Shown piece after piece: positions 15,274 to 49,656 of a stretch of 64,000 bases of DNA; positions within the stretch are counted from its first letter, which is position 1; each line of letters begins with the position of its first letter. The DNA lies in assembly GCA_001767455.1 (NCBI GenBank), contig MELC01000022.1, forward strand, positions 1 through 64,000, written 5' to 3'. This DNA comes from Acidobacteria bacterium RIFCSPLOWO2_12_FULL_66_21 (lineage in GTDB: Bacteria > Acidobacteriota > Vicinamibacteria > Vicinamibacterales > 2-12-FULL-66-21). Below the pieces are notes generated by a model. It ran no database searches. It worked only from the letters and a program-made list of their open reading frames with translations, and was not told the origin of the DNA. The position numbers were made by a program, and so were the translations under genes.

Positions 15274-15353
15274 GGCGTACGTGGCACTTCGCTTGCTCCA
15301 TTGACAGCGACACGAGAACAGACTTCAGCAGAGCTGTTCAGGAGGAGCAAACG

Positions 15354-38241: not shown

Positions 38242-38772
38242 TCAGGTCCCTCCGCCAGCCAGCACCCTGGCGATCGCGGTGATGGTATTCCAGTTGCGCG
38301 TGGTGACCGGGACCCCAAAAAGCCGGTCGAACGTGCCAAGGTAGCTGATGACCTTCATGTGGCGCCGGTACACGCCGAAGACGAACCGGTTGTCCCTCGC
38401 GAGGATCTTCAGCAGCCACCTGCCGCTGGAAGGAAAGCTCATGGGCGTCAACGGCGCCGAGCGGGGGCGTTTGGACAGGACGCTCACGAAGCGGACGATG
38501 TCGTGTCGAACGGGCTGGTCCGCGAAATGATTCTGAGACATCAGTCTGACAATCTCGCGGCCCTCGCAGATCATGATCTCGGTCTCAAAGGGAAGCCTGC
38601 GTGCCAATTCGGCGCGGAGTTGCGCCCGGGTGACAGGCCGCCGGATCACGAAGGTGCCCGCCGCGCCGATGTTGACGGCATCGAGGTGCTTCAGTTGTTC
38701 GGCGAGCGGGCCAGGTCGGAAGATCCTGTGACCGCCGACGTTGACCCCTCTCAGAAGAACCACGAGTGCCAC
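38242..38772 (-). CDS. DUF1697-family protein
   Basis: 176 residues. It starts MALVVLLRGVNVGGHR, the constant opening of DUF1697 proteins. There is a central region with NIGAAGTFVIR and a C-terminal KVISYLGTFDRLFGVPVTTR with TITAIA. Family members are soluble, with an unknown biochemical role. The next gene upstream on the same strand is a methyltransferase 51 bases away, so the two may form an operon. No ribosome site is obvious. Confidence 0.88.
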   Translation of the reverse strand: MALVVLLRGVNVGGHRIFRPGPLAEQLKHLDAVNIGAAGTFVIRRPVTRAQLRAELARRLPFETEIMICEGREIVRLMSQNHFADQPVRHDIVRFVSVLSKRPRSAPLTPMSFPSSGRWLLKILARDNRFVFGVYRRHMKVISYLGTFDRLFGVPVTTRNWNTITAIARVLAGGGT

Positions 38773-38823
38773 GCGTTTCCTCTCGATGTTGTTGACCAGG
38801 CTGACCAGCGTTTCACCGCACGA

Positions 38824-39519
38824 TCAGGGCGCCGCGGGCTTGTCCCACAGAATCGTATAGCGCCACAACGCGTGGTCCAGGACGCGTGCGCCGGGCAGGA
38901 TCCGATCGGCGAGCGCCCTGGCTTCATCGAACGAGAGGTATGTCTCGCCGGCGCCATGGCGGGCCCATGCCTCTCGCACGCGACGGCTCGACCGCAGACG
39001 GCCGGTGCGGACCAGGCAAATCAGGAGGGTGTGCGCGAGCGCGCTGCAGGACCGCAGCGTTTCGCGGAGACTGCTGTCGCGCCGAAGGTCCTGGACGATC
39101 AAACGGCCTCCAGGCCGGAGCAGCGCAGCCATTCGCGCGATCGCCATGTCGTAGGGCATGTGGTGAAGCACCGCGGCGGAGACGACGCAGTCGAAGCTGG
39201 CTTCGGCGAGCTCGGCCTCGAGAAAATTGCCGCAGATGAAAGACACGCCCGGGGCATTCTCCGCTCGGCGCGCCCGTTCGATCATCACAGGGGACAGATC
39301 GATGCCGACCACTTCCCTGCCGTCGGAGGCAATCGCAAACGCAAGACCCCCAAGACCGCAGCCGACGTCGAGCACGCGGACCGTCCCGGCGGGCACGAGA
39401 GAGGCCAGGAACCGATCGCAGCGATCCGAGCCGCTCCCCCGCGGACCGGCGAGCCGCGCGATTTCGTCGAAATCCGCCCGGACGCGTTCGGCGTCGTGCA
39501 TCGCGTCAGCGCACGTCAA
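38824..39519 (-). CDS. SAM-dependent methyltransferase (class I)
   Basis: 231 residues. Motif I is VRVLDVGCGLGGLAFA (about 48-63), then GIDLSPVMIERAR, motif II/III SFDCVVSAAVLHHMPYD and PGGRLIVQDLRR. These mark a class I Rossmann methyltransferase of the UbiE/Methyltransf_11 type using S-adenosylmethionine. Its start could also be the second Met at residue 7. The substrate is not evident. It lies on the same strand as DUF1697. A period-7 repeat ends about 20 bases before its start. Confidence 0.85.
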   Translation of the reverse strand: MTCADAMHDAERVRADFDEIARLAGPRGSGSDRCDRFLASLVPAGTVRVLDVGCGLGGLAFAIASDGREVVGIDLSPVMIERARRAENAPGVSFICGNFLEAELAEASFDCVVSAAVLHHMPYDMAIARMAALLRPGGRLIVQDLRRDSSLRETLRSCSALAHTLLICLVRTGRLRSSRRVREAWARHGAGETYLSFDEARALADRILPGARVLDHALWRYTILWDKPAAP

Positions 39520-39542
39520 CAGTCAAGGTGAACGGAGGGACC

Positions 39543-39577
39543 CCGAGCTGCGAGCAACGAGCAACGAGGCACGAATT
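39543..39577. repeat. Period-7 tandem array (GAGCAAC type)
   Basis: Units GAGCTGC, GAGCAAC, GAGCAAC, GAGGCAC, GAATTAT. It ends at the stop of the small helical protein gene. The same GAGCTGC-GAGG motif closes the array at 62330. Confidence 0.75.
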
Positions 39578-39869
39578 ATTCAGTGCTGAAGGCCTTGCGC
39601 GCATGTTGCGAGTGCAGCTCGTGCAGCAGGCGCATGACGTTGTAGGCGCTCATCTCGACGAGCACCGACGTCACATAGGTGTGCACATCGTCGCTCAGGA
39701 GCGGCTCGAGCTGCTTCATCGCCGCGGTGACGCGCTCCTCCTGCCGCTTCAGCTCCTCGCGCGAGACGACGCCGTCCTCCATCGCGTTTGTGAAGGATTC
39801 GAGCTTGGTGATCTGCTCCTGGATCACGGGATGCTCCGCCCTCTCGTCGAACCAGCTCGTTCGCGCCAC
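39576..39869 (-). CDS. Small helical protein, last gene of VWA-PspA-ABC-AAA operon
   Basis: 97 residues from GTG at 39869, chosen because AAGGAGG lies 6 bases upstream. An ATG 6 codons earlier abuts the AAA+ stop. All-helical and charged, with QITKLESFTNAMEDGVVSRE, then EELKRQEERVTAAMKQLEPL and SVLVEMSAYNVMRLLHELHS. There is no signal or membrane helix, so it is cytoplasmic. Its gene follows directly after the AAA+ ATPase, so it probably acts as an adaptor or regulatory subunit of that ATPase. This is inference from position. No family recognised. Confidence 0.7.
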   Translation of the reverse strand: MARTSWFDERAEHPVIQEQITKLESFTNAMEDGVVSREELKRQEERVTAAMKQLEPLLSDDVHTYVTSVLVEMSAYNVMRLLHELHSQHARKAFSTE

Positions 39870-39887
39870 GTGCCGCCTCCTTGTCAT

Positions 39888-41660
39888 TCAGAGTGCGTTG
39901 ACCAGTTGTTTGATCGCCGTCAGCCGCTCCTGCAGCTTCGCGCGGCCGCCGTCCGCGTCGATGCGCGCTGCAATCTGCGGCGGCAGGAACTGGCGATCCG
40001 TGCACTCGAGGATCGCCGCCGTCTCCTGCAGATCCCGCTCGAGCCCCTGCGTGGACGGCATGAACTCCGCCACGACCTGCGCCAGCGCCTCGCGCGTGAT
40101 GTGATCGCTTCCCGCGATCAGCGACCGCCGCCACGCGCGGCCGACCATGCCCTCGATGTCCGCTCCCGACAGGTGCCCGCGCTGCGGGATCGGCGGCACG
40201 TCTTCCGGCGCGAGCCGCGATCCCATCTTGCCCGCCAGGATCAGGAACATCTTCCTGATCTCCTCGTCGTCGGTCGGGTAGAAGAGCGGAATGTGCACCT
40301 CCGCGCGTCCCTGGCGCTTGAGGTCGATCGGCAGCAGATCGGGGCGCGCCGTCAGCAGCATCCAGATGATCTGGCCGCGATACCGGGTGTCGCCCATCTG
40401 CGCCGCGATCATCCCGAACACGCGGCTCGACGTGCCGGAGTCCCCTTCCGCCTCGCGGCTCCCCAGCGCCGCGTCCGCTTCGTCGACGACGACGACGACG
40501 GGCCCCATCGCGCGCAGCACCGCGAGCACGCGCTCGAGGTTCCCTTCGGTCTCGCCGACGTACTTCGACCTGAAGTTCTTGAGGACGACGCAGGGAACGC
40601 CGATCTCGCCGCTGAGGCACTGCGCGATGAACGACTTCCCCGTCCCGACCGGCCCGCAAATCAGATATCCCATCGGCAGGCTGTCGAGCGCGCCGCGCTT
40701 GAGCAGCGCCGCGTCCTCTCGCAGCCGCGCCTTGGCCGCCTCGTGGCCGACGACCGTGTCGAGCGTCCACTTCGGCTCGATGAACTCCAGCAGCCCGTGG
40801 CACTGGCGCTCGAGCAGCCGCTTCTTCAGCGCGCGGAACACGACCGCGTCGAGTCGTCGCCCGGCCTCCCTCGCGGACCGGACGAGGACGTTGAGGTCCG
40901 TGAGCGAGATGCCCGCGGTCAGCTTCGCCAGCTCGGTCGCGTTGAAGTCCGAGAATCGCTGGAGCTCCTCAGCGGGCACCGTCGTCTCGAGAAACGCGTG
41001 GCGCTCCCGCTCGGCGGGCAACGGCACCTCGATGGAGGCGACGTGCGGGTTGCCGGTCAGACGATCGTTCAGGTCCACGAGCTTCTCGTCGATCAGCACG
41101 AACGCCATGTTCAAGCGCTTGACGTGCGGGCTCATCGCCCAGTTCAGCATCGTCACGAGCTGCGACGAGGACTGGAGGCTGAGCCGGCCGGGCTCGCCCG
41201 ACGGGAACACGTAGGACGCCTGGTCCATGATGAGGGCGAGGCTCAGGCGATCGTCCTGCGGCGCCATGATGTTGTTGCGGACGAACCGGTCGATCGCGGC
41301 AAACGTCGCGGCAGGATCCTTGGACAGCGCGCTGAGATCGCCGACCTTGCGGTTGGCGAGCGGCACGATCTCCTTCAGCCGCTTCTCGTCGCGCCCCGCG
41401 AAGGCGCGAAGGCCCTGGCCGAGGTCGTAGTGCAGCACGATCGACCAGCGCCCGAACACCTGCTCGGTGAGGAACTCGGCGAGACTGCCGGTCCGCGCCG
41501 GCTCGGATTCGCTGATCTTGAAGAGGTCGTAGGTGTTGCCATGGAGGATGAACGCCGACGTGGTGCCGGAGAAATACAGGTCCGCGAGCTGCGACGCCCA
41601 CGCGGGAAACCACTCAGGGAGCGTCTCCGGACGCCGGGGCGTGGCCGACTCAGGCGTCAT
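39888..41660 (-). CDS. AAA+ ATPase with N-terminal degenerate P-loop-like domain
   Basis: 590 residues. The C-terminal half (about 310-560) is a full AAA+ module: Walker A GPVGTGKS (about 335-342), Walker B VVVVVDEADAA (about 392), sensor 1 MLLTARPDLL and later helical lid. The N-terminal 290 residues contain FILHGNTYDLFKI, then ALIMDQASYVFPSG and LNMAFVLIDEKLVDLN. That looks like a P-loop-type fold without its own Walker A, an arrangement also seen in Ycf46-type AAA+ proteins. It overlaps the upstream 308-residue gene by 11 bases and is followed by a small helical protein. It likely remodels or moves a protein target in an envelope-linked complex. Confidence 0.85.
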   Translation of the reverse strand: MTPESATPRRPETLPEWFPAWASQLADLYFSGTTSAFILHGNTYDLFKISESEPARTGSLAEFLTEQVFGRWSIVLHYDLGQGLRAFAGRDEKRLKEIVPLANRKVGDLSALSKDPAATFAAIDRFVRNNIMAPQDDRLSLALIMDQASYVFPSGEPGRLSLQSSSQLVTMLNWAMSPHVKRLNMAFVLIDEKLVDLNDRLTGNPHVASIEVPLPAERERHAFLETTVPAEELQRFSDFNATELAKLTAGISLTDLNVLVRSAREAGRRLDAVVFRALKKRLLERQCHGLLEFIEPKWTLDTVVGHEAAKARLREDAALLKRGALDSLPMGYLICGPVGTGKSFIAQCLSGEIGVPCVVLKNFRSKYVGETEGNLERVLAVLRAMGPVVVVVDEADAALGSREAEGDSGTSSRVFGMIAAQMGDTRYRGQIIWMLLTARPDLLPIDLKRQGRAEVHIPLFYPTDDEEIRKMFLILAGKMGSRLAPEDVPPIPQRGHLSGADIEGMVGRAWRRSLIAGSDHITREALAQVVAEFMPSTQGLERDLQETAAILECTDRQFLPPQIAARIDADGGRAKLQERLTAIKQLVNAL

Positions 41661-42576
41661 TGCGGAGGACCTCGCGGAGATCGGTCTCGAGGATCGCCGG
41701 CGGCTCTTCGAGCTGGTCCGCGAGTCCCGTCAGGTGCTGCAGCTCGCTGACCGCCTTTTCCGTCTGCCGCATGCTCTCGGCGGCCGAATCGACCTGGCTG
41801 CTGAGGAAATCCGGATCCTGGCGATTGACGGCCATTTCGGCGAGCGCCTGGATCTTCCCCTCGATGCGATCCAGCTCGATCGACACGAACTCGCCGTTCT
41901 TCTTCGCGCGCGCGAAGTTGTCGAGCCGCAGCTCCGCCATCGCGATGCTGTCCTGGAGCGACCGCACGATCCGCTCGTCGCCCCCCGTCTGCGCGGCGGC
42001 GAAGTTCTTCCTGAGCTCCTCCAGCCGCGACGTGATGTCCTGCCCGTCCATGCTCTGTAGGAACCGATCGAGCGCGGTCTTCGACACGAGCAGGCGAAGG
42101 AACAGCCAGAGCAGCCGATCGAGTCCCGGCGTGCGGATCTCCTCCGCCGAGTTCGCCTGGACGCCGGTCGCGCCGCGCACGCCCGCCGCGATGCCGCGCA
42201 TGTCCACGCACCGGGCGTGCAGCCGCTCGAACCGGCGGCGCGCGTCCAGCGGCAGTCCGCCCAGCATCGTGACGAGCGAGACCGGCGGCGCGGCCGGCGC
42301 CTGGTCGTCGCCGCCTCCCGTCCGAGCCGCATGCGCCTTCGCATCGATGGCCGCGCGGAACCGCGGCACCGAGATCAACCCGGTCAGGTACGTGACTTCT
42401 CCAGCCGCCACGAGCGGGAGCAGCACCGGCGCGAGCGGCGTCAGCGCGGCCGCGGCCGTGCCGCCGACAAAGAACAGCAGGTTCCAGCGGAAGAGGAACG
42501 CCTCCCGCAGGTACTCCTTGAGGCCGGCGCCTTCCGGCGTGGTCCCTGCCGTTGTTCCGAGAGGATCTCTGTTCAT
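41650..42576 (-). CDS. Membrane protein with coiled-coil cytoplasmic part, operon member
   Basis: 308 residues. A membrane region lies near the N-terminus (about 30-70, LLFFVGGTAAAALTPLAPVL and following) with one or two helices. The remaining 240 residues are mostly helical and coiled-coil-like (ITSRLEELRKNFAAAQTGGD, SIELDRIEGKIQALAEMAVN, ESMRQTEKAVSELQHLTGLA). No enzyme motif. It sits between the ABC ATPase gene (68 bases upstream) and the AAA+ gene, which it overlaps by 11 bases. It is a candidate membrane anchor or substrate for the AAA+ ATPase. I do not recognise the family. Confidence 0.7.
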   Translation of the reverse strand: MNRDPLGTTAGTTPEGAGLKEYLREAFLFRWNLLFFVGGTAAAALTPLAPVLLPLVAAGEVTYLTGLISVPRFRAAIDAKAHAARTGGGDDQAPAAPPVSLVTMLGGLPLDARRRFERLHARCVDMRGIAAGVRGATGVQANSAEEIRTPGLDRLLWLFLRLLVSKTALDRFLQSMDGQDITSRLEELRKNFAAAQTGGDERIVRSLQDSIAMAELRLDNFARAKKNGEFVSIELDRIEGKIQALAEMAVNRQDPDFLSSQVDSAAESMRQTEKAVSELQHLTGLADQLEEPPAILETDLREVLRNDA

Positions 42577-42644
42577 CAGTAGTCGCTAAAGAACAGTGTC
42601 CATCCGTGTCCTTCCCTGGTGATAGCTCTGTGTGCGTCCGTGTT

Positions 42645-43442
42645 TCAATCTCCGGCCTTGGTGGACGTTTCGAGCTTCTCGATCAAATCCCGGATCTCGA
42701 ACACCAGATCGACGAACGATCGCTCGCGCTGCATCTCCTTCGGCGGCCGATCGGGGGGCGGCACCTGCATTTCCCGCAGGATGGTCCCCGGCGCCGACGA
42801 GAACACGTACACGCGGTCACCAAGGTACACCGCTTCCTCGATCGAGTGTGTCACGAAGAACACGGTCGCCTGCGCTTCCCGCCACAGGTTGACGAGCAGC
42901 TCCTGCATGTTCAGGCGCGTCGTCGGATCGAGCGCGCCGAACGGCTCGTCCATCAAGATGATGCGCGGCGAGAGGATCAGCGTGCGCGCGATGGCCACCC
43001 GCTGGCGCATGCCGCCGGACAGCTCGTGGGGATACTTCGGCGCGTCGCGCGTGATGTCGAGGCCGACCTTCGCGATCCACTCGCGGGCGCGCTCCCGCCG
43101 CTCCTTCGCCGCCACGCCGCGGCACTCGAGGCCGAACGCGACGTTGTCCTGCACCGTGCGGTTGTCGAACGACGTGTAGTCCTGGAAGACCATGCTGCGA
43201 TCGGAGCCCGGGGGCCCGACCGGCTTGTCGGCGACGAGAACGGCTCCCTCGCTGGCCGGGTGGTGCGGCGGCAGCCCCGCGATGAGCCGCAGCACGGTGG
43301 ACTTGCCGCAACCCGACGGCCCGAGGATCGCGATGAACTCCCCCTTGCCGGGGCGGTCGTCGACGGTGAAGTTGACGTCGCGGATCACCGTCGTCGCGCC
43401 GAAGCGCTTCGTCACGTTCTGGAACTGGACGACGTTCGGCAT
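42645..43442 (-). CDS. ABC transporter ATP-binding protein (NitT/TauT type)
   Basis: 265 residues from ATG at 43442, which shares one base with the permease stop. A complete nucleotide-binding domain of the NitT/TauT class: Walker A GPSGCGKST (about 41-49), Q-loop MVFQDYTSF, signature LSGGMRQRV (about 145), Walker B ILMDEPFGALD (about 165) and H-loop FVTHSIEEA. A C-terminal tail of about 30 residues follows (DRPPKEMQRERSFVDLVFEI). It powers the adjacent permease. It is in the middle of the operon, before the 308-residue membrane protein gene. Confidence 0.92.
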   Translation of the reverse strand: MPNVVQFQNVTKRFGATTVIRDVNFTVDDRPGKGEFIAILGPSGCGKSTVLRLIAGLPPHHPASEGAVLVADKPVGPPGSDRSMVFQDYTSFDNRTVQDNVAFGLECRGVAAKERRERAREWIAKVGLDITRDAPKYPHELSGGMRQRVAIARTLILSPRIILMDEPFGALDPTTRLNMQELLVNLWREAQATVFFVTHSIEEAVYLGDRVYVFSSAPGTILREMQVPPPDRPPKEMQRERSFVDLVFEIRDLIEKLETSTKAGD

Positions 43443-44263
43443 CACTCCTCGACGACGCGGTAGGGGAACAGGCCGCGCTGGAACCAGAAGAGGAGGCGGT
43501 CGATGCCAAAGGCCAGCAGCCCGATGATGAGCAGGATCAGGATGATGTGCTCGGACAGTCCGCGGCGCTGGCTCGTCATCAGCAGGTAGCCGAGGCCGTG
43601 CTTCGCGTTGATCAGCTCGGCGAGCATGATGTAGCCGAACGCGAGGCCGAACAGGTGGCGCAGGCTGTTGTAGATGTCGGGCAGCGCCATCGGGACGAGC
43701 ACCTTCCGCACGATCTGCGAGGAGCTGGCGCCGAGGGTCTGCGCGGTTTCGACGTAGCGGTCCGGCACCGCCGTGATCGCGGCCACGACGTCCGAGTACA
43801 CGAACGGCACGCACGCGATGAAGATGAACATCACCTTCTGCGTCTCGTCGATGCCGAACCAGAGAATGGTGAGCGGGATCAGCGCGGCGACCGGGAGGTT
43901 CCGGCCGAAGAGCGCGAGCGGCGCGCCGGCCGCCTGCACGACGCGCCACGAACCGGCGACGATGCCGATGGGGATCCCGACGGCGGCGGCAAGCCCGAAG
44001 CCCACGAGGACGCGTTGGAGCGTCGCCGCGATGCTCTCGACGAGGCCGCGGTCCTTCCACAGCGACGGAAAGCTGCGGAACACCTCGAGCGGGCTCGGCA
44101 GGATCACCGGAGACACGAAGCGGTTTTCAGGGCTGGCGCCGTAGGTCGCGAGCCACCAGAGCAGGAGTACGAAGGCCACTCCGCCCACGCCGACGAGCCG
44201 CCGCGCGGTCGGCCTCGGCGCGACCCTGAGCGCAAACAGCGCCCGTTTCGGTGCGGCGGCCAT
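43442..44263 (-). CDS. ABC transporter permease (NitT/TauT type)
   Basis: 273 residues, six membrane helices. It carries the cytoplasmic EAA loop that contacts the ATPase, read here as TLGASSSQIVRKVLVPMALP with DIYNSLRHLFG following. The N-terminal part has VGGVAFVLLLWWLATYGASP, and a LPSPLEVFRSFPSLW periplasmic segment typical of this class. NitT/TauT transporters import nitrate, sulfonates, taurine or thiamine precursors, so the class alone does not fix the solute. The gene starts one base after the binding protein gene ends and overlaps the ATPase start. Confidence 0.9.
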   Translation of the reverse strand: MAAAPKRALFALRVAPRPTARRLVGVGGVAFVLLLWWLATYGASPENRFVSPVILPSPLEVFRSFPSLWKDRGLVESIAATLQRVLVGFGLAAAVGIPIGIVAGSWRVVQAAGAPLALFGRNLPVAALIPLTILWFGIDETQKVMFIFIACVPFVYSDVVAAITAVPDRYVETAQTLGASSSQIVRKVLVPMALPDIYNSLRHLFGLAFGYIMLAELINAKHGLGYLLMTSQRRGLSEHIILILLIIGLLAFGIDRLLFWFQRGLFPYRVVEE

Positions 44264-45991
44264 CTACTTGGGGGCCGTCGCCTCCGCCGGATACACCTTG
44301 ATCTCGACGCGGCGGTTCTTCGCGTGGTTCTCCGGATCGGACGGATCGGCGGGACGATCCCACCCCATGCCCGCCGTCGAGAACTGGTTGGGCTGCAGCG
44401 ACGAGAACTTGCGCACGATTGCTTCCTTCACGGCGTTCGCGCGGTTCAGCGACAGCTCCTGCACGAGGCTCTTCGGCACCTGGGCCTTCATCGACCCGTC
44501 GGTGTGCCCTTCGATCACGATGCGCGCCGCGCCGTACTGGCCGGCGAGCTTGCCGACCTCCTCGACGACGAACCCGACGTTCGGATCGTAGAGCTCCTCG
44601 ACTTCCCTCCCCTCCGCGTTGCGCGTGATCTTCTTGGTGAGGTCCCAGGAGTTCGGGAAGAAGTGGATGACGACCGTCTTCGTCAGGATCTCGGTGCTCT
44701 CCCCCTGGATCGACCCCGCGGCCGACGGCGCGAACTGGATGTCGTACTCGTTCTTCTGCGAGGCGTACTTCTGCTCGCTCGCGAGCTTCTGGATGATCGA
44801 GAAGTCCATCACCTGGTCGAACGGCGTCTGCTGCGTGACGGCGTTGATCTTCTTGTAGAGGAAGTACGCGGTGTTCCAGGTCCGCTCGAAGTTGGTCGGG
44901 TTGTTCTGGTTCAGGAAGAACTCGCGGTTCTCCGCGTAATTGGTCGAGTGCGCGTCGCCGAGCATCCCGAGCGTGTCGCTCTCGGGGATCGAGTAGCCGG
45001 CGGCCATCAGCTTCGCGACCTTCTGCCGGTTCTCCTGCGTCTTCAGGTCGATCATCGCGTCGAAAATGCCGCGGACGATCCCTTCCATGATGTCCGGGTT
45101 GTCCTTCGCGAAGTCCGCCCGCGCGAACCAGATGTCGGCGATCAGCTTGTTCGCGGTGGCCGTCGTGACGATCAGCTTGTTGCCGCGGACCTTCTCGAGG
45201 TTGTAGATGTCGGGCGCCCAGGTGACGCATCCGGCGAGCCGCTTGTCGGCGTTGAACGCGGCGGCGGCCTGGAAGGCGTCCTGCGTGAACTTGAAGTCCA
45301 CTTCGGCCGGCTGCACGCCGGCGTTGATCAGCGCGTTGAGCACGAAAAAGTGCGACGGCGAGTTCTGCGCGAGCACCACCGTCTTCCCGCGCAGCTCCGC
45401 CATCGTCTTGATCGCATCGCGGACGACGATGCCGTCGCCGCCGTTCGACCAGTCGACCTGCTGGTAGACGCGCGGCATGACGCGCGAGTCCTTGCGCAGC
45501 CCCTCGAGGAACAGCGGCACCATGTCGAGCGTGGCCCAGCCGACGTGCAGGTTGCCCGCCGCATACGCATCGCGCATCGCGATCGGGTCGTCGATCAGGA
45601 CCAGCTCGACCTTGAAGTCCTTGCCCGAGGGGCTCTTCCACAACTTGCCCGGCTTGAACCCGTTGTTCGCGTAGATAATCGGGCCCCAGCCCGCCCACAC
45701 GTTGATGGCGAAGCGGACGGTGCGATCCGCCATCGCCGTGTAGTTCGAGATGCCCTTGACCTCGGGCAGCTTCGCCGCGGCGACGTAGTTGTATTCCTTG
45801 ACCGTCGTGATGCCCGAGGTGTCCGGCGCCTCGGCGCCCCCCTTCATCTGCTTCAGCTCTTCCTGAGAGAAGGTGCCGGAATCCCGCTTCGGCCCGATCG
45901 CGCCGTACCGCCAGAGCGCGAGGCCGACGAGCGCGAGGACGACGACGAGCACTGCGACGTAGAACGCTGGTTTCGGCTGTCCGTTCGCCAT
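44264..45991 (-). CDS. Membrane-anchored NMT1/TauA-type solute-binding domain fused to OmpA domain
   Basis: 575 residues with an unusual domain order. A single N-terminal membrane helix (about 8-28, AFYVAVLVVVLALVGLALWR) serves as anchor. Residues about 85-430 are an NMT1/TauA-type binding domain, with VRFAINVWAGWGPIIYANNG, then AGNLHVGWATLDMV and GGDGIVVRD. Residues about 432-575 are an OmpA-like peptidoglycan-binding domain starting VVIHFFPNSWDL, with Asp in GHTDGS, Arg in ELSLNRANAV and the end NRRVEIKVYPAE. The two residues that hold diaminopimelate in OmpA are both present. The receptor is thus fixed between inner membrane and cell wall. The permease gene follows with no gap. Ligand unknown. 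Confidence 0.9.
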   Translation of the reverse strand: MANGQPKPAFYVAVLVVVLALVGLALWRYGAIGPKRDSGTFSQEELKQMKGGAEAPDTSGITTVKEYNYVAAAKLPEVKGISNYTAMADRTVRFAINVWAGWGPIIYANNGFKPGKLWKSPSGKDFKVELVLIDDPIAMRDAYAAGNLHVGWATLDMVPLFLEGLRKDSRVMPRVYQQVDWSNGGDGIVVRDAIKTMAELRGKTVVLAQNSPSHFFVLNALINAGVQPAEVDFKFTQDAFQAAAAFNADKRLAGCVTWAPDIYNLEKVRGNKLIVTTATANKLIADIWFARADFAKDNPDIMEGIVRGIFDAMIDLKTQENRQKVAKLMAAGYSIPESDTLGMLGDAHSTNYAENREFFLNQNNPTNFERTWNTAYFLYKKINAVTQQTPFDQVMDFSIIQKLASEQKYASQKNEYDIQFAPSAAGSIQGESTEILTKTVVIHFFPNSWDLTKKITRNAEGREVEELYDPNVGFVVEEVGKLAGQYGAARIVIEGHTDGSMKAQVPKSLVQELSLNRANAVKEAIVRKFSSLQPNQFSTAGMGWDRPADPSDPENHAKNRRVEIKVYPAEATAPK

Positions 45992-46012
45992 AAGTGCAGA
46001 CTCCTGTCCGCG

Positions 46013-46777
46013 TTAAGAATTCGTCTGTTTCTCGGCCACCGGCTCGGTGGTCGCGGGACCGAGGTCCTTCGCCGTCTGCGCGACCGGCGTGGTTTCGGGA
46101 GACTTGAGGCCGAGCTCCACCTCGAAGTCCGTGAGCGCCTGCTCGGCGAGCTGCGCCTGCATGCGCTCCTCGGCATCGATCGCGGCGATGCCTTTGGCCG
46201 AGAGGTCCGCCGCGACGCGCACCTTGCCGCGGTTCTGATCGATCTTCTGCTGGATGACGGCCTCGATCTCGCCGAAGTCGGTCGTGAGGTTCATGTCGAA
46301 GGTTTCCGACAGCTTGGCGATCTCCGCCTCGGCGCTGCTCATCTTCAGCTCGGCGTCGTACTTCTGGATCTTGTCGCGCAGCTCGATCAGCTTCTCGTTG
46401 GCGTGCTGGATCTTCTTCAGGCTGTTGCCGTAGGCGGTCTCGTGCATCTGGAGCTGCTGCTCGTTCGCGGCGTGCTCCGTCTTGGCTTTCTGCAGCTCCA
46501 GGGCGAACTTGGCCGCCGTCACGCGATCTCCGGCCTTGAGGTACGCCTTCGTCTCCGCCTCGAGCTTCTGCACGTGCGAGCGGTTGGCCTGGACCTGGCG
46601 CGTGACGCGCTCGACGAGCCCGCGATATTGCTCGAGGCCGACGCGGCCTTCCTTCAGCTGGGCGACCGCCTGGTCGTACTCGTAGCGCATCTGCGCGACG
46701 GGATCCGCTTCCCAGAAGAGGTTGGCGACCTTGTTGATCTGCGCCATCATCGCGGACCAGAACTTGTGGAGGATCAC
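46013..46777 (-). CDS. PspA/IM30-family (ESCRT-III-like) protein
   Basis: 254 residues. An N-terminal amphipathic helix (MMAQINKVANLFWEADPVAQ) is followed by long helices typical of PspA/Vipp1: MRYEYDQAVAQLKEG, VERVTRQVQANRSHVQKLEA, ALELQKAKTEHAANEQQLQM and a later helical segment with AELKMSSAEAEIAKLSETFD. The last 35 residues are a disordered acidic tail (SPETTPVAQTAKDLGPATTE). PspA proteins polymerise on damaged or stressed membranes and are related to ESCRT-III. It lies 21 bases before the binding-protein gene and 32 bases after the VWA gene. Confidence 0.88.
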   Translation of the reverse strand: MILHKFWSAMMAQINKVANLFWEADPVAQMRYEYDQAVAQLKEGRVGLEQYRGLVERVTRQVQANRSHVQKLEAETKAYLKAGDRVTAAKFALELQKAKTEHAANEQQLQMHETAYGNSLKKIQHANEKLIELRDKIQKYDAELKMSSAEAEIAKLSETFDMNLTTDFGEIEAVIQQKIDQNRGKVRVAADLSAKGIAAIDAEERMQAQLAEQALTDFEVELGLKSPETTPVAQTAKDLGPATTEPVAEKQTNS

Positions 46778-46809
46778 GGGCGTCTCCTTGTGCCAGTTGT
46801 CCGACGTAA

Positions 46810-47589
46810 TTACTTCTTGACGGGTTCCCGCTCGCCGGCGTCGATCGCCTCGGCCAGGATCTTGCCCTGGTAGACCCCTTCGAGCGCCGCCTGCAGCTCG
46901 CCGCCGGTGCCGGCGCCCAGGACGTCGCCGCCGACCTGCTTCAGGAACGCAAACTTCACGGGGCTCGTGTCGAACGCGACGAAGTAGATCTGCACCGCTC
47001 CTTCGCTCTTCCTGTAGATGTCCCGCGCCACGTCGTCCGGATCCCGGCCCGTCGTGTTGTCGCCGTCGGTCACGACCAGAATGTACTTCCGGAAGACGCC
47101 GGCTCGATAGAGCGCGGGCCGGGCCTCGCGCAGCGCGTCGCCGATGGCCGTGCCGCCGCCCGGTCGCGGCAGATTGGCCAGCGCGGCACGGACCGTCTCG
47201 CGATTGTAGCGTTGAATGGGCAGCAGCTCGCGCGGGCTGCTCGCGAAGCTGTAGATGCCGATTTTGATCGGAAAGTCAGGGCGCTTCGCCACGAACGCGT
47301 CGGTCGCGTTCAGCATCGTCTCCAGCGCCTCGCGCGCGATGACGTGCTTCGGCCGGCTCTCGCCGGGCGGGTCTTCCTTCATCGAGCCGGAGGTGTCGAC
47401 GAGGATGGCGACCGCGGCACCCAGACCCTCTTCGACCTCCGCCTGATACGGCGCGGACTCGCTGGCGCGCGCCGGTGTCCCGGCCTGCTCGGGACGGTCG
47501 GCTCGCCGGCTGCTCTGATAGAGGCTGAAGGCGAGCACCGCCGCCAGCACCAGGTAGCCGACCGGGCTCCCTCCCCTACGCGTGCTCAT
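46810..47589 (-). CDS. Membrane-anchored VWA-domain protein, first gene of operon
   Basis: 259 residues. One N-terminal membrane helix (about 10-26, VGYLVLAAVLAFSLYQS), a short linker, then a von Willebrand A domain. The MIDAS metal site looks complete: DTSGS (about 66-70), Thr in GGTAIGDAL and Asp in VVTDGDNTTGRD. The domain faces the periplasm. VWA domains bind partner proteins through a Mg2+ ion and often team up with AAA+ ATPases. It is the first gene of the operon 47589-39576. The upstream region has no convincing promoter that I can read. Confidence 0.85.
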   Translation of the reverse strand: MSTRRGGSPVGYLVLAAVLAFSLYQSSRRADRPEQAGTPARASESAPYQAEVEEGLGAAVAILVDTSGSMKEDPPGESRPKHVIAREALETMLNATDAFVAKRPDFPIKIGIYSFASSPRELLPIQRYNRETVRAALANLPRPGGGTAIGDALREARPALYRAGVFRKYILVVTDGDNTTGRDPDDVARDIYRKSEGAVQIYFVAFDTSPVKFAFLKQVGGDVLGAGTGGELQAALEGVYQGKILAEAIDAGEREPVKK

Positions 47590-47862
47590 GGCTCTGTTGC
47601 CTCGCTCTTGCGCAGCCTCAAACGCCCCCCGCCGCCGTGTTGCGCAGCCCGCCAGGGCCGCCCGACAGGAGCTGCTGAAACGGGCGGAAATGCGTCTTGC
47701 AGTCTAGCGTCGGGTGCCGGCCGAATCAAGCCGGCCCCGGCGAGTTGCGGCTGGACGGCGGTGAGCGTAGCCGCACGAAGACAGCCCTGTGCCGGGTGTC
47801 CCGCCGTCCCGCCGTCCCGGCCGTCCCGCCGTCCCGCTGAGACGCACCCACGGTTTTCACCG

Positions 47863-47973
47863 CACGAAGACCACAAAGCACACGAAGGACACGAAGACAG
47901 CAAAGCTCTTTTGGATCCCTTTCTCAGTCTTCGTGAACTTTGTGAACTTCGTGCTCTTCGTGCTGAAAAGCCG
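47863..47973. repeat. Inverted pair of period-9 arrays (CACRAAGNN)
   Basis: Left arm (47863-47898): four 9-base units of type CACGAAGNN/CACAAAGNN. Right arm (47938-47973, possibly from 47928): the inverse complement with CTTCGTG and CTTTGTG units. The region between could form the loop of one large hairpin. The rest of 47590-48057 holds a GTCCCGCC-type short repeat (about 47795-47838) and no gene that I see. Confidence 0.8.
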
Positions 47974-48057
47974 TCGGCTCGTGCATCGTCGGGGTGTGTA
48001 TCGGCGGGATGTGTTCGATGGACTGAGCGGCGATCTTCGAGTGTTAGAATCGGCCGC

Positions 48058-49656
48058 ATGCCTAAGCTCACCGCCCTCCTCCTCGGCGGCGTCGTGTGCG
48101 CGGCGCTTGGTATTCATACGGCCGCGCAGACTTCCCCCTACGATCTGCTCCTGAAGAACGGCCGCATCGTGGACGGCACCGGCGCCGCCTGGTATCGCGG
48201 CGACGTAGCCATCACAGGAGACACGATCGCGCGCATCGCGCCGGCGATTGGCGCGCGGGCGGCGCGCGTCGTGGACGTGCACGGCGCGGTGGTGGCGCCC
48301 GGGTTCATCGACATCCACACGCACGCGCGGCGCGGCATCTTCGACGTCCCCACGGCGCCGAACTACGTCCGGCAGGGGGTCACGACCGTCATCGAAGGAC
48401 CTGACGGATCCTCGCCCGTCCCGCTCGCGCCCTTCCTGGCGAACCTCGAGAAGCTCCAGAAGTCGCCGAACATCGGCAGCTTCATCGGCCAGGGCTCGGT
48501 GCGCTCGGAGATCATCGGCAACGTCGATCGCACGGCGACCGCCGAGGAAATCGAGAGCATGAAGGCGCTGGTCGAGCAGGGCATGAAAGACGGCGCGTTC
48601 GGTCTGAGCACGGGTTTGTTCTACGTGCCCGGCACGTTCACGCCGACGAGCGAAGTCATCGAGCTGGCCCGCGTGGCCGGGCGTTACGGCGGCGTGCACG
48701 TGTCGCATCAGAGAGACGACGCGTCGCGGGTGATCGACAGCGTCAAGGAGACGATCGCCATCGGCGAGGAGGGGGGCCTGCCGACACAGGTGACGCATCA
48801 CAAGGTGGTCGGGCAGGCGAACTGGGGCAAGAGCGTGGAGACGCTCCGGCTGATTGACGACGCGCGCGCCAGGGGCGTCGACGCCACGATCGATCAGTAT
48901 CCGTACACGGCATCGAGCACGAGCGTAGCGGCGGCGCTGCTGCCCGCGTGGGCACTGGAAGGGGGCCGCGAGGCGCAGGCGGCGCGGCTGAAGGACCCCG
49001 CGCAGCGCGCGAAGATCAAGGCCGAGAGTATCGCGATGATTCGCGACGAGCGCGGCGGCGGCGATCCGAAGAACGTCCAGTTCGCGAGCTGCGGCTTCGA
49101 CGAGTCGCTCTCGGGCAAGACGCTCGCCGACCTCACGGTCGCGCGCGGCATGCCGCCCACGATCGAGAACGCGGCGGAGACGACGTTATGGCTCGTCGAG
49201 CGCGGCGGATGCCAGGGCATCTTCCACGCGATGGACGAGAAGGACCTCGAACGGATCCTGCGCCATCCGGCGGCGATGATCGCGTCGGACGGCGAGGTGC
49301 CGATCTTCGGCCGCCGGAACCCGCATCCGCGCAGCTATGGCACCTTCGCGCGCGTCCTTGGCGTCTACGTGCGCGGGAAGAGGGTGATAACGCTCGAGGA
49401 CGCGGTCAGGAAGATGACCTCCTTCCCCGCCACGCGCCTGCGCCTCGGCGACCGCGGGATCCTGCGGGCGGGCATGAAGGCGGACATCGCGGTGTTCGAC
49501 CCGGCCACGGTGCGCGACACGGCCACCTACCAGCAGCCGCACCAGTACGCCGAGGGGTTCTCAATGGTCATCGTCAACGGCCAGGTGGTTTACGAGAACG
49601 GCGCGATGACCTCCGCCCGTCCGGGCCGGGTGCTCTACGGGCCTGGGAAACAGTAG
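48058..49656 (+). CDS. Secreted N-acyl-D-amino-acid deacylase-type amidohydrolase
   Basis: 532 residues from ATG at 48058. Signal peptide 1-23. A metal-dependent amidohydrolase of the D-aminoacylase family: LLLKNGRIVDGTG, the metal-binding DIHTHARRGIF (His-x-His), HVSHQRDD, VTHHKVVG with two His, and Asp in MIASDGEVP. The C-terminal end is a typical small beta domain with GDRGILRAGMKADIAVFDP. Members cleave N-acyl-D-amino acids. Its export signal is a common acidobacterial feature. The membrane acyltransferase gene begins 27 bases after it and may be co-transcribed. Confidence 0.9.
   Translation: MPKLTALLLGGVVCAALGIHTAAQTSPYDLLLKNGRIVDGTGAAWYRGDVAITGDTIARIAPAIGARAARVVDVHGAVVAPGFIDIHTHARRGIFDVPTAPNYVRQGVTTVIEGPDGSSPVPLAPFLANLEKLQKSPNIGSFIGQGSVRSEIIGNVDRTATAEEIESMKALVEQGMKDGAFGLSTGLFYVPGTFTPTSEVIELARVAGRYGGVHVSHQRDDASRVIDSVKETIAIGEEGGLPTQVTHHKVVGQANWGKSVETLRLIDDARARGVDATIDQYPYTASSTSVAAALLPAWALEGGREAQAARLKDPAQRAKIKAESIAMIRDERGGGDPKNVQFASCGFDESLSGKTLADLTVARGMPPTIENAAETTLWLVERGGCQGIFHAMDEKDLERILRHPAAMIASDGEVPIFGRRNPHPRSYGTFARVLGVYVRGKRVITLEDAVRKMTSFPATRLRLGDRGILRAGMKADIAVFDPATVRDTATYQQPHQYAEGFSMVIVNGQVVYENGAMTSARPGRVLYGPGKQ

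Follow-up and report, generated by a model that had tools for sequence, protein, structure and literature searches.

Eight genes on the minus strand of a 64,000-nucleotide stretch of DNA from Acidobacteria bacterium RIFCSPLOWO2_12_FULL_66_21 (assembly GCA_001767455.1, contig MELC01000022.1, positions 1-64,000; hereafter the window) encode a PspA protein and a double AAA+ ATPase together with an OmpA-fused receptor, an ABC permease and ATPase, a VWA protein and two further proteins. We judge it slightly better than an even chance (probability about 0.55) that this AAA+ protein is a Vps4-like ATPase that turns over a PspA polymer under the control of the receptor. PspA is placed in the ESCRT-III superfamily in the available text of PMC8281802. 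The genes are called g1 to g8 from the VWA gene onward, and G and L labels denote genomes and loci.

PspA, its tail motif and the AAA+ ATPase

The two central proteins and their diagnostic parts are as follows.

46013..46777, minus strand: g2, PspA, 254 residues; PF04012 (PspA_IM30) 8.8e-8, 32.5 bits, below the cut-off of 33.9
46055..46069, minus strand: KDLGP at residues 237-241 of g2, the PspA tail motif; pattern among the cluster PspAs K.[LIM]G[PST]
39888..41660, minus strand: g7, AAA+ ATPase, 590 residues, two AAA domains; classical AAA 3.9e-21
40809..41660, minus strand: g7 N-terminal AAA domain, residues 1-284, degenerate, without Walker A
40632..40655, minus strand: g7 Walker A GPVGTGKS in the second AAA domain, residues 336-343 (motif scan)

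Scanning the AAA+ alignment against species genomes gave at least 531 relatives, of which the best 80 were kept for neighbour counts; these counts therefore describe the 80 loci closest to the window AAA+ and not a sample of all relatives. By our own grouping, the 80 belong to Acidobacteriota, Gemmatimonadota, Myxococcota/Deltaproteobacteria, Planctomycetota and two gamma-labelled metagenome-assembled genomes (MAGs). The whole cluster, with more than 1 kb on both sides, was visible at 46 of the 80 loci (30 of the 46 in Planctomycetota). The AAA+ gene is present in all 46, PspA in 43, g8 in 38, the receptor in 34, the permease, the ABC ATPase and g6 in 32 each, and VWA in 8. PspA is thus the most constant neighbour of the AAA+ gene, and it is retained even in loci that hold only PspA, g6 and AAA+. 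Because the same genes recur jointly in several phyla, their co-occurrence goes beyond chance. The initial annotation had singled out the 308-residue g6 and the 97-residue g8 as genes to look for beside receptor and PspA; it had also named scattering of the genes among relatives as evidence against a functional unit, and no such scattering is seen, since the neighbourhood of PspA, receptor, ABC transporter and AAA+ is kept across phyla. The related loci include those of two cultured-name strains, Paraliomyxa miuraensis SMH-27-4 (L043) and Aquisphaera insulae JC669 (L074). The AAA+ proteins of the two MAGs labelled Gammaproteobacteria/Lysobacterales (L050, L053) are nested among Myxococcota copies and have short flanks without a detected cluster gene (the L050 genome has a receptor elsewhere), which points to either transfer or a binning error.

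By its matches the AAA+ protein is of the Cdc48/VCP/CdvC type. Exactly one Walker A, together with Walker B and a pore-loop motif, was found in 91 of 91 AAA+ proteins; in g7 (Walker A 336-343, Walker B 389-396) the sole Walker A falls in the second domain. The first half of g7 is a degenerate AAA domain by its profile matches to chains in the PDB, namely VCP/Cdc48 (2.5e-7) and CdvC/Vps4 (3.4e-4), and the second keeps its motifs intact. This assignment rests on the PDB profile search and not on comparing the halves, as hhalign gave the first against the second a probability of only 0.4%, though collinear over 124 columns. Neither the degenerate domain nor the conserved PspA tail motif had been noticed in the initial annotation. 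More distant AAA+ relatives, aligned along almost the entire profile with E values from 5.7e-115 (best) to 1.0e-54 (weakest), were seen at L210-L213 (G064, G246, G101, G224); none of the four genes has PspA within about 1.5 kb, and they perhaps form a different subfamily.

The window PspA gives the only PF04012 match in the 6.48 Mb source genome. PF04012 is precomputed on 120 of 120 PspA homologues among the matches listed, the window's own included. In hhalign, the window-type PspA profile matches intermediates at 100%, and these match canonical PspA at 92%.

Of 73 complete PspAs from the clusters, 70 carry the strict tail motif K.[LIM]G[PST] within their 45 C-terminal residues; 2000 shuffles average 0.37 and never exceed 4. 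A PspA at L184 (6159-8011, minus strand), seemingly split over two frames, was excluded from the counts. A test set was drawn from 297 Acidobacteriota genomes, 91 of them with a Pfam PspA match, by hand-picking 60 places, taken with flanking sequence of at most about 6 kb, and scoring the last 42 residues of 59 of the 60 PspAs. Here, the strict motif was found in 15 of the 30 PspAs that have AAA+, g6 or receptor in their neighbourhood and in 3 of the 29 that have none of them (Fisher 0.0015). When the motif is relaxed, as was done after inspection of the test-set sequences, it is present in 21 of 30 linked and 4 of 29 unlinked PspAs. The association also holds in trans: in three genomes AAA+ is missing from the roughly 6 kb around a motif-bearing PspA (strict form in G087 and G098, looser form in G129) and a full-length AAA+ is encoded elsewhere (E 4.8e-172 or better), about 1 Mb off on the same contig in G129 and on other contigs in the other two. 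Among the four unlinked PspAs with the looser motif, three (L157, which is non-strict, L159 and L168) belong to AAA+-encoding genomes; the fourth, L195, begins at a contig edge.

Absence of the ATPase is accompanied by absence of the strict motif in family f35, where all 18 genomes with a PspA match lack a full-length AAA+ (15 at E 1e-40, plus G120, G177 and G230) and g6 still lies beside PspA (L166, L167, L170, L237-L251). The strict motif is found in 0 of 18 tails (0/15 and 0/3) and the looser one in 4 (3/15 and 1/3), all KQIGA; by eye, [KR]QI is present in 12 of the 15, so that the f35 tail looks like a decayed motif. Three of the 18 f35 PspAs also count among the 30 linked PspAs of the test set.

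The remaining genes and the exchange of receptors

The other genes of the cluster, the tail motif of g6 and the amine oxidases found at related loci are listed below.

46810..47589, minus strand: g1, VWA protein, 259 residues; PF13519 7.5e-14; N-terminal hydrophobic segment 7-24; accessory part
44264..45991, minus strand: g3, receptor, 575 residues; hydrophobic segment 6-33, NMT1/SsuA-like binding domain, C-terminal OmpA domain
43442..44263, minus strand: g4, ABC permease, 273 residues; PF00528 4.7e-21
42645..43445, minus strand: g5, ABC ATPase, 266 residues; PF00005 1.7e-28; 4-base overlap with g4
41650..42576, minus strand: g6, 308 residues; predicted membrane hairpin, then long helices
41689..41706, minus strand: g6 tail EPPAIL, residues 291-296; P.[IL][LIF] motif
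39576..39869, minus strand: g8, small helical protein, 97 residues; GTG start; family without a Pfam name
L021:2250-3728, L024:1326-2807, L067:10707-12293 and L069:12118-13590: flavin amine oxidases

All eight open reading frames (ORFs) of the cluster (39576-47589) are present, with spacings from the VWA gene onward of 32, 21, 0, -4, 68, -11 and 0 bases, which confirms the order, the single strand and the short gaps or overlaps described previously. The MIDAS (metal ion-dependent adhesion site), Walker and OmpA residues, also described as complete, were located in the VWA, AAA+ and receptor proteins. In g1 we read DTSGS (65-69), GGGTAIG (144-150) and TDGDN (174-178) as the MIDAS residues; the OmpA motifs of g3 are GHTD (495-498) and NRRVEI (559-564). 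The OmpA domain of g3 was matched at 1.5e-10, and its binding domain is of the NMT1/SsuA/urea type (TIGR03427 9.6e-22, 77.6 bits, far below the cut-off of 333.9). An ATG at 39887 would give g8 103 residues. Since the usual length of its homologues is 97, the GTG at 39869 is the most likely start, and with it the last spacing (g7-g8) becomes 18 bases.

In the closest genomes (G002, G004, G009, G010) the gene order of the window is kept, the G009 cluster being split across two contigs and the G002 contig ending at the AAA+ gene. The order outside Planctomycetota is (VWA)-PspA-receptor-permease-ATPase-g6-AAA-(g8), and within that phylum PspA-AAA-g8-(VWA)-receptor-permease-ATPase-g6. Reduced loci hold only PspA-AAA-g8 or PspA-g6-AAA. 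VWA was found at 16 of the 93 loci L016-L108, besides the window, over several separate branches of the AAA+ tree; it adjoins the receptor or stands one gene away.

A receptor of another kind is found at L021 and L024 (Acidobacteriota) and at L067 and L069 (Planctomycetota), where neither the permease nor the ABC ATPase of the system was seen and a flavin amine oxidase lies beside receptor and VWA. PF01593 matched the two oxidases tested at 6.7e-57 (L021) and 2e-56 (L067), and we read the oxidase N-terminus as twin-arginine-like. The receptors of these four loci and of L025 form one clade (support 1.0), and at none of the five loci does a permease adjoin the receptor (L025 and L069 reach the edge of their contigs), whereas the AAA+ tree sets L021/L024 far from L067/L069. 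The L067 receptor is 47% and 45% identical to those of L021 and L024 and only 27% to those of L051 and L056, which belong to its own AAA+ clade. For the AAA+ protein the identities are reversed (68% to L051 and 70% to L056; 40% to L021 and 39% to L024), as they are for PspA (75% and 69% to L051 and L056; 27% and 27% to L021 and L024). Because these identities conflict, the receptor (with the oxidase) and the motor genes have different histories. As far as such sequence comparisons go, receptor modules are exchangeable, the amine-oxidase-linked type accompanying motor modules that are only distantly related and belong to two phyla.

Neither g6 nor g8 gave a family above the curated cut-off in Pfam or NCBIfam. 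The AlphaFold2 model of g6 (mean predicted confidence, pLDDT, 85.5) has a membrane hairpin (hydrophobic segment 33-59) and helices at 201-251 and 255-283. P.[IL][LIF] occurs in the last 35 residues of 43 of 58 g6 proteins (shuffles: mean 4.0, maximum 11), and a g6 homologue was found in 13 of 40 genomes searched, the source genome included. The g8 model has three helices (pLDDT 76.9); 1223 homologues were found, and 0 of 120 among the matches listed carry a Pfam domain.

A consensus scan of 38700-48300 found no sigma-70-like promoter and six terminator-like sites, where shuffles average 5.1. The number of sigma-54-like sites across the window is that of chance (21 observed, 21.5 expected); an exact TGGCAC-N5-TTGCT at 15282-15297 belongs to this chance-level total. 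At E 1e-5, no homologue of the flanking ORFs 38824-39519, 47212-49656 (later part) and 38242-38772 was seen at seven loci of relatives in six genomes; among these loci L019, L020 and L030 have little flank. We read 38824-39519, on the same strand 56 bases after g8, as methyltransferase-like and 47212-49656 as hydrolase-like. Nothing in these comparisons points to an extension of the unit past the eight genes.

Proposed mechanism and its alternatives

In the mechanism we propose, the AAA+ protein likely grips the conserved KxLGP tail of PspA and threads or unfolds PspA, drawing it from a polymer on the membrane by analogy with the action of Vps4 on ESCRT-III. Its N-terminal hydrophobic segment and OmpA domain predict that the receptor spans from the inner membrane to the wall; with this predicted anchorage in the inner membrane and, via the OmpA domain, in peptidoglycan, it would set the sites of PspA disassembly. 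The receptor probably binds a small solute and, with the permease where present, would recruit or release the PspA coat under envelope stress; it could report either the solute or the distance to the wall. For the other proteins, g6 may be a membrane-bound partner or adaptor, perhaps a second client or an anchor through its P-x-[IL]-[LIF] tail; the ATPase may have g8 as its cofactor, and VWA may be an optional part of the receptor side. We hold more tentatively, at somewhat under even odds, that the cluster is a complete bacterial ESCRT-III/Vps4-type machine. It would comprise a PspA polymer with a KxLGP tail resembling an MIT-interacting motif, a two-tier AAA+ unfoldase with g8 as cofactor, the membrane partner g6, and exchangeable wall-anchored receptors, coupled to the transporter or to amine oxidase with VWA, which tell where and when to remodel the membrane.

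Several observations weigh against this mechanism or parts of it. The strict motif is not universal, being missing in 15 of the 30 linked PspAs of the test set; six of the linked PspAs (L175-L178, L190, L192) end in QKTM instead of KxLGP, and others have no form of the motif. The scored PspAs of the four genomes with a distant AAA+ relative (G246, G101, G064, G224) lack it too. Motif and AAA+ may simply share ancestry, so the sequences are not independent, and the loss in f35 is perhaps one event because f35 is one clade. Pfam (E up to 0.1) gave g7 neither an MIT nor a Vps4 C-terminal domain, so that tail recognition, if any, must differ from that of Vps4. The window-type PspA profile matched canonical PspA directly at 2% (hhalign) and no PspA/Vipp1 chain among solved chains. 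With the Pfam score just under its cut-off and the direct match failing, the membership of g2 rests on homologues and intermediates. Profile comparisons brought out no relation of g6 to PspA or Snf7; g6 had no significant fold or profile match, and neither AlphaFold2 model, of g6 or of g8, had a significant fold match. Finally, the VWA identities of L067 (30-33% to L021/L024 against 28-30% to L051/L054) do not show that VWA moved with the exchanged receptor.

The strongest alternative, which we consider unlikely at roughly half the weight of an even chance, puts transport first: the cluster would take up a small solute of the urea, sulfonate or nitrate type, and PspA, g6 and AAA+ would only protect or assemble the transporter. 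Of the 34 fully visible clusters with a receptor, 32 have permease and ABC ATPase, which fits this reading, as do the nearest named families, taurine, urea, sulfonate and nitrate transporters, albeit all far below their cut-offs. The motor genes, however, also stand in PspA-g6-AAA+ trios without receptor or permease in the stretch seen (the receptor search covered the locus only), and the receptor clade of L021, L024, L025, L067 and L069 has no adjoining permease. At 13 loci no receptor is nearby. Five of these genomes (L050, L074, L084, L098, L103) hold one elsewhere; the other eight show none at E 1e-20, genome completeness not being told and absence thus not proven. L074 ends at a contig edge, and a fourteenth genome, L072, has its receptor at the locus.

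An envelope-stress regulation of the PspA-PspF kind, in which the AAA+ would be a signalling partner held by PspA and no unfoldase, is improbable. Its precedent is PspF, an AAA+ protein regulated by PspA in known Psp systems according to the available text of PMC8281802. The AAA+ of the cluster is of another type, carries a pore-loop motif and has no sigma-54 activator family reported; the chance-level count of sigma-54-like sites also argues against it.

The initial annotation had paired VWA with AAA+ in remodelling the membrane or transporter; such a chaperone, MoxR-like and acting on the transporter, we regard as quite improbable. VWA is the first gene of the cluster and its recurrence in separate branches of the AAA+ tree favours the idea, but VWA is missing from 38 of the 46 visible clusters. 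It is the least constant gene (8/46) and lies near the receptor, AAA+ goes with PspA (43/46), and no MoxR family was reported for g7 in Pfam or NCBIfam. The earlier interpretation as a whole is partly supported. Anti-phage defence is the least probable alternative: AAA+ resembles IetA and the OmpA part ZorB (PADLOC, 1.1e-15 and 5.6e-6), but these matches span the shared AAA or OmpA domain only, NCBIfam IetA scores 43 bits against a cut-off of 510, and none of the eight genes was assigned to a protease family.

Relation to known systems and significance

The initial annotation knew of no characterised system with this combination, yet its core is already described. Section 18 of PMC11237479 (Ravi et al. 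2024), among the literature covered the one account of the combination, reports, by comparative genomics and with no experiment there, operons of PspA, a Snf7 protein with a transmembrane (TM) segment, a double-AAA protein with an inactive first copy, an ABC transporter and a PBPB-OmpA protein, and already draws the Vps4 analogy. PspA, the double AAA with inactive first domain, ABC ATPase, permease and receptor-OmpA fusion are common to those operons and the window. The TM-Snf7 protein of that section may correspond to g6, which has a hydrophobic hairpin and gave no Snf7/PspA match by profiles. The window cluster has a VWA gene, and 'vwa' and 'willebrand' have 0 occurrences in the main text of the paper; nor does its section 18 mention a 97-residue partner, a tail motif of PspA, a variant with amine oxidase or an exchange of receptors. 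New here are the tail motif of PspA, together with its loss and its association with AAA+ in trans, the family of g8, the way VWA is distributed, the variant with an amine oxidase and the exchange of receptors, none of which we found in print, supplements and most subscription papers lying outside the search.

Like the ESCRT-III/Vps4 systems of archaea and eukaryotes, the cluster sets an ESCRT-III superfamily protein beside a classical AAA ATPase, with a C-terminal tail motif associated with the ATPase; it differs in the missing report of MIT or Vps4_C and in the degenerate first AAA domain. With the classical Psp system (PspFABC) it shares PspA, but its AAA+ is of another type and PspA is encoded with a receptor and transporter. 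None of the eight genes was assigned to a PspF, PspB or PspC family; elsewhere in the genome the search covered PspA only. The binding domain, permease and ATPase families are those of NitT/TauT-type ABC importers; unlike there, the binding protein combines an OmpA fusion with a hydrophobic anchor at its N-terminus, and in one clade of receptors no permease adjoins. MoxR-VWA chaperones also have a VWA protein and an AAA+ in one cluster; here the AAA+ is Cdc48/Vps4-like and VWA usually absent.

It was described as unclear in 2021, in the available text of PMC8281802, whether PspF is Vps4-like for PspA or whether Vipp1 has an equivalent ATPase. The cluster offers a candidate ATPase, a putative five-residue contact and natural controls, namely genomes with PspA and g6 and without the ATPase; with these now named, the question of a Vps4-like ATPase becomes directly testable. 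If the proposed mechanism is true, the cluster would supply the missing motor for bacterial ESCRT-III, and the exchange of receptors suggests a general membrane-remodelling motor under plug-in extracytoplasmic sensors.

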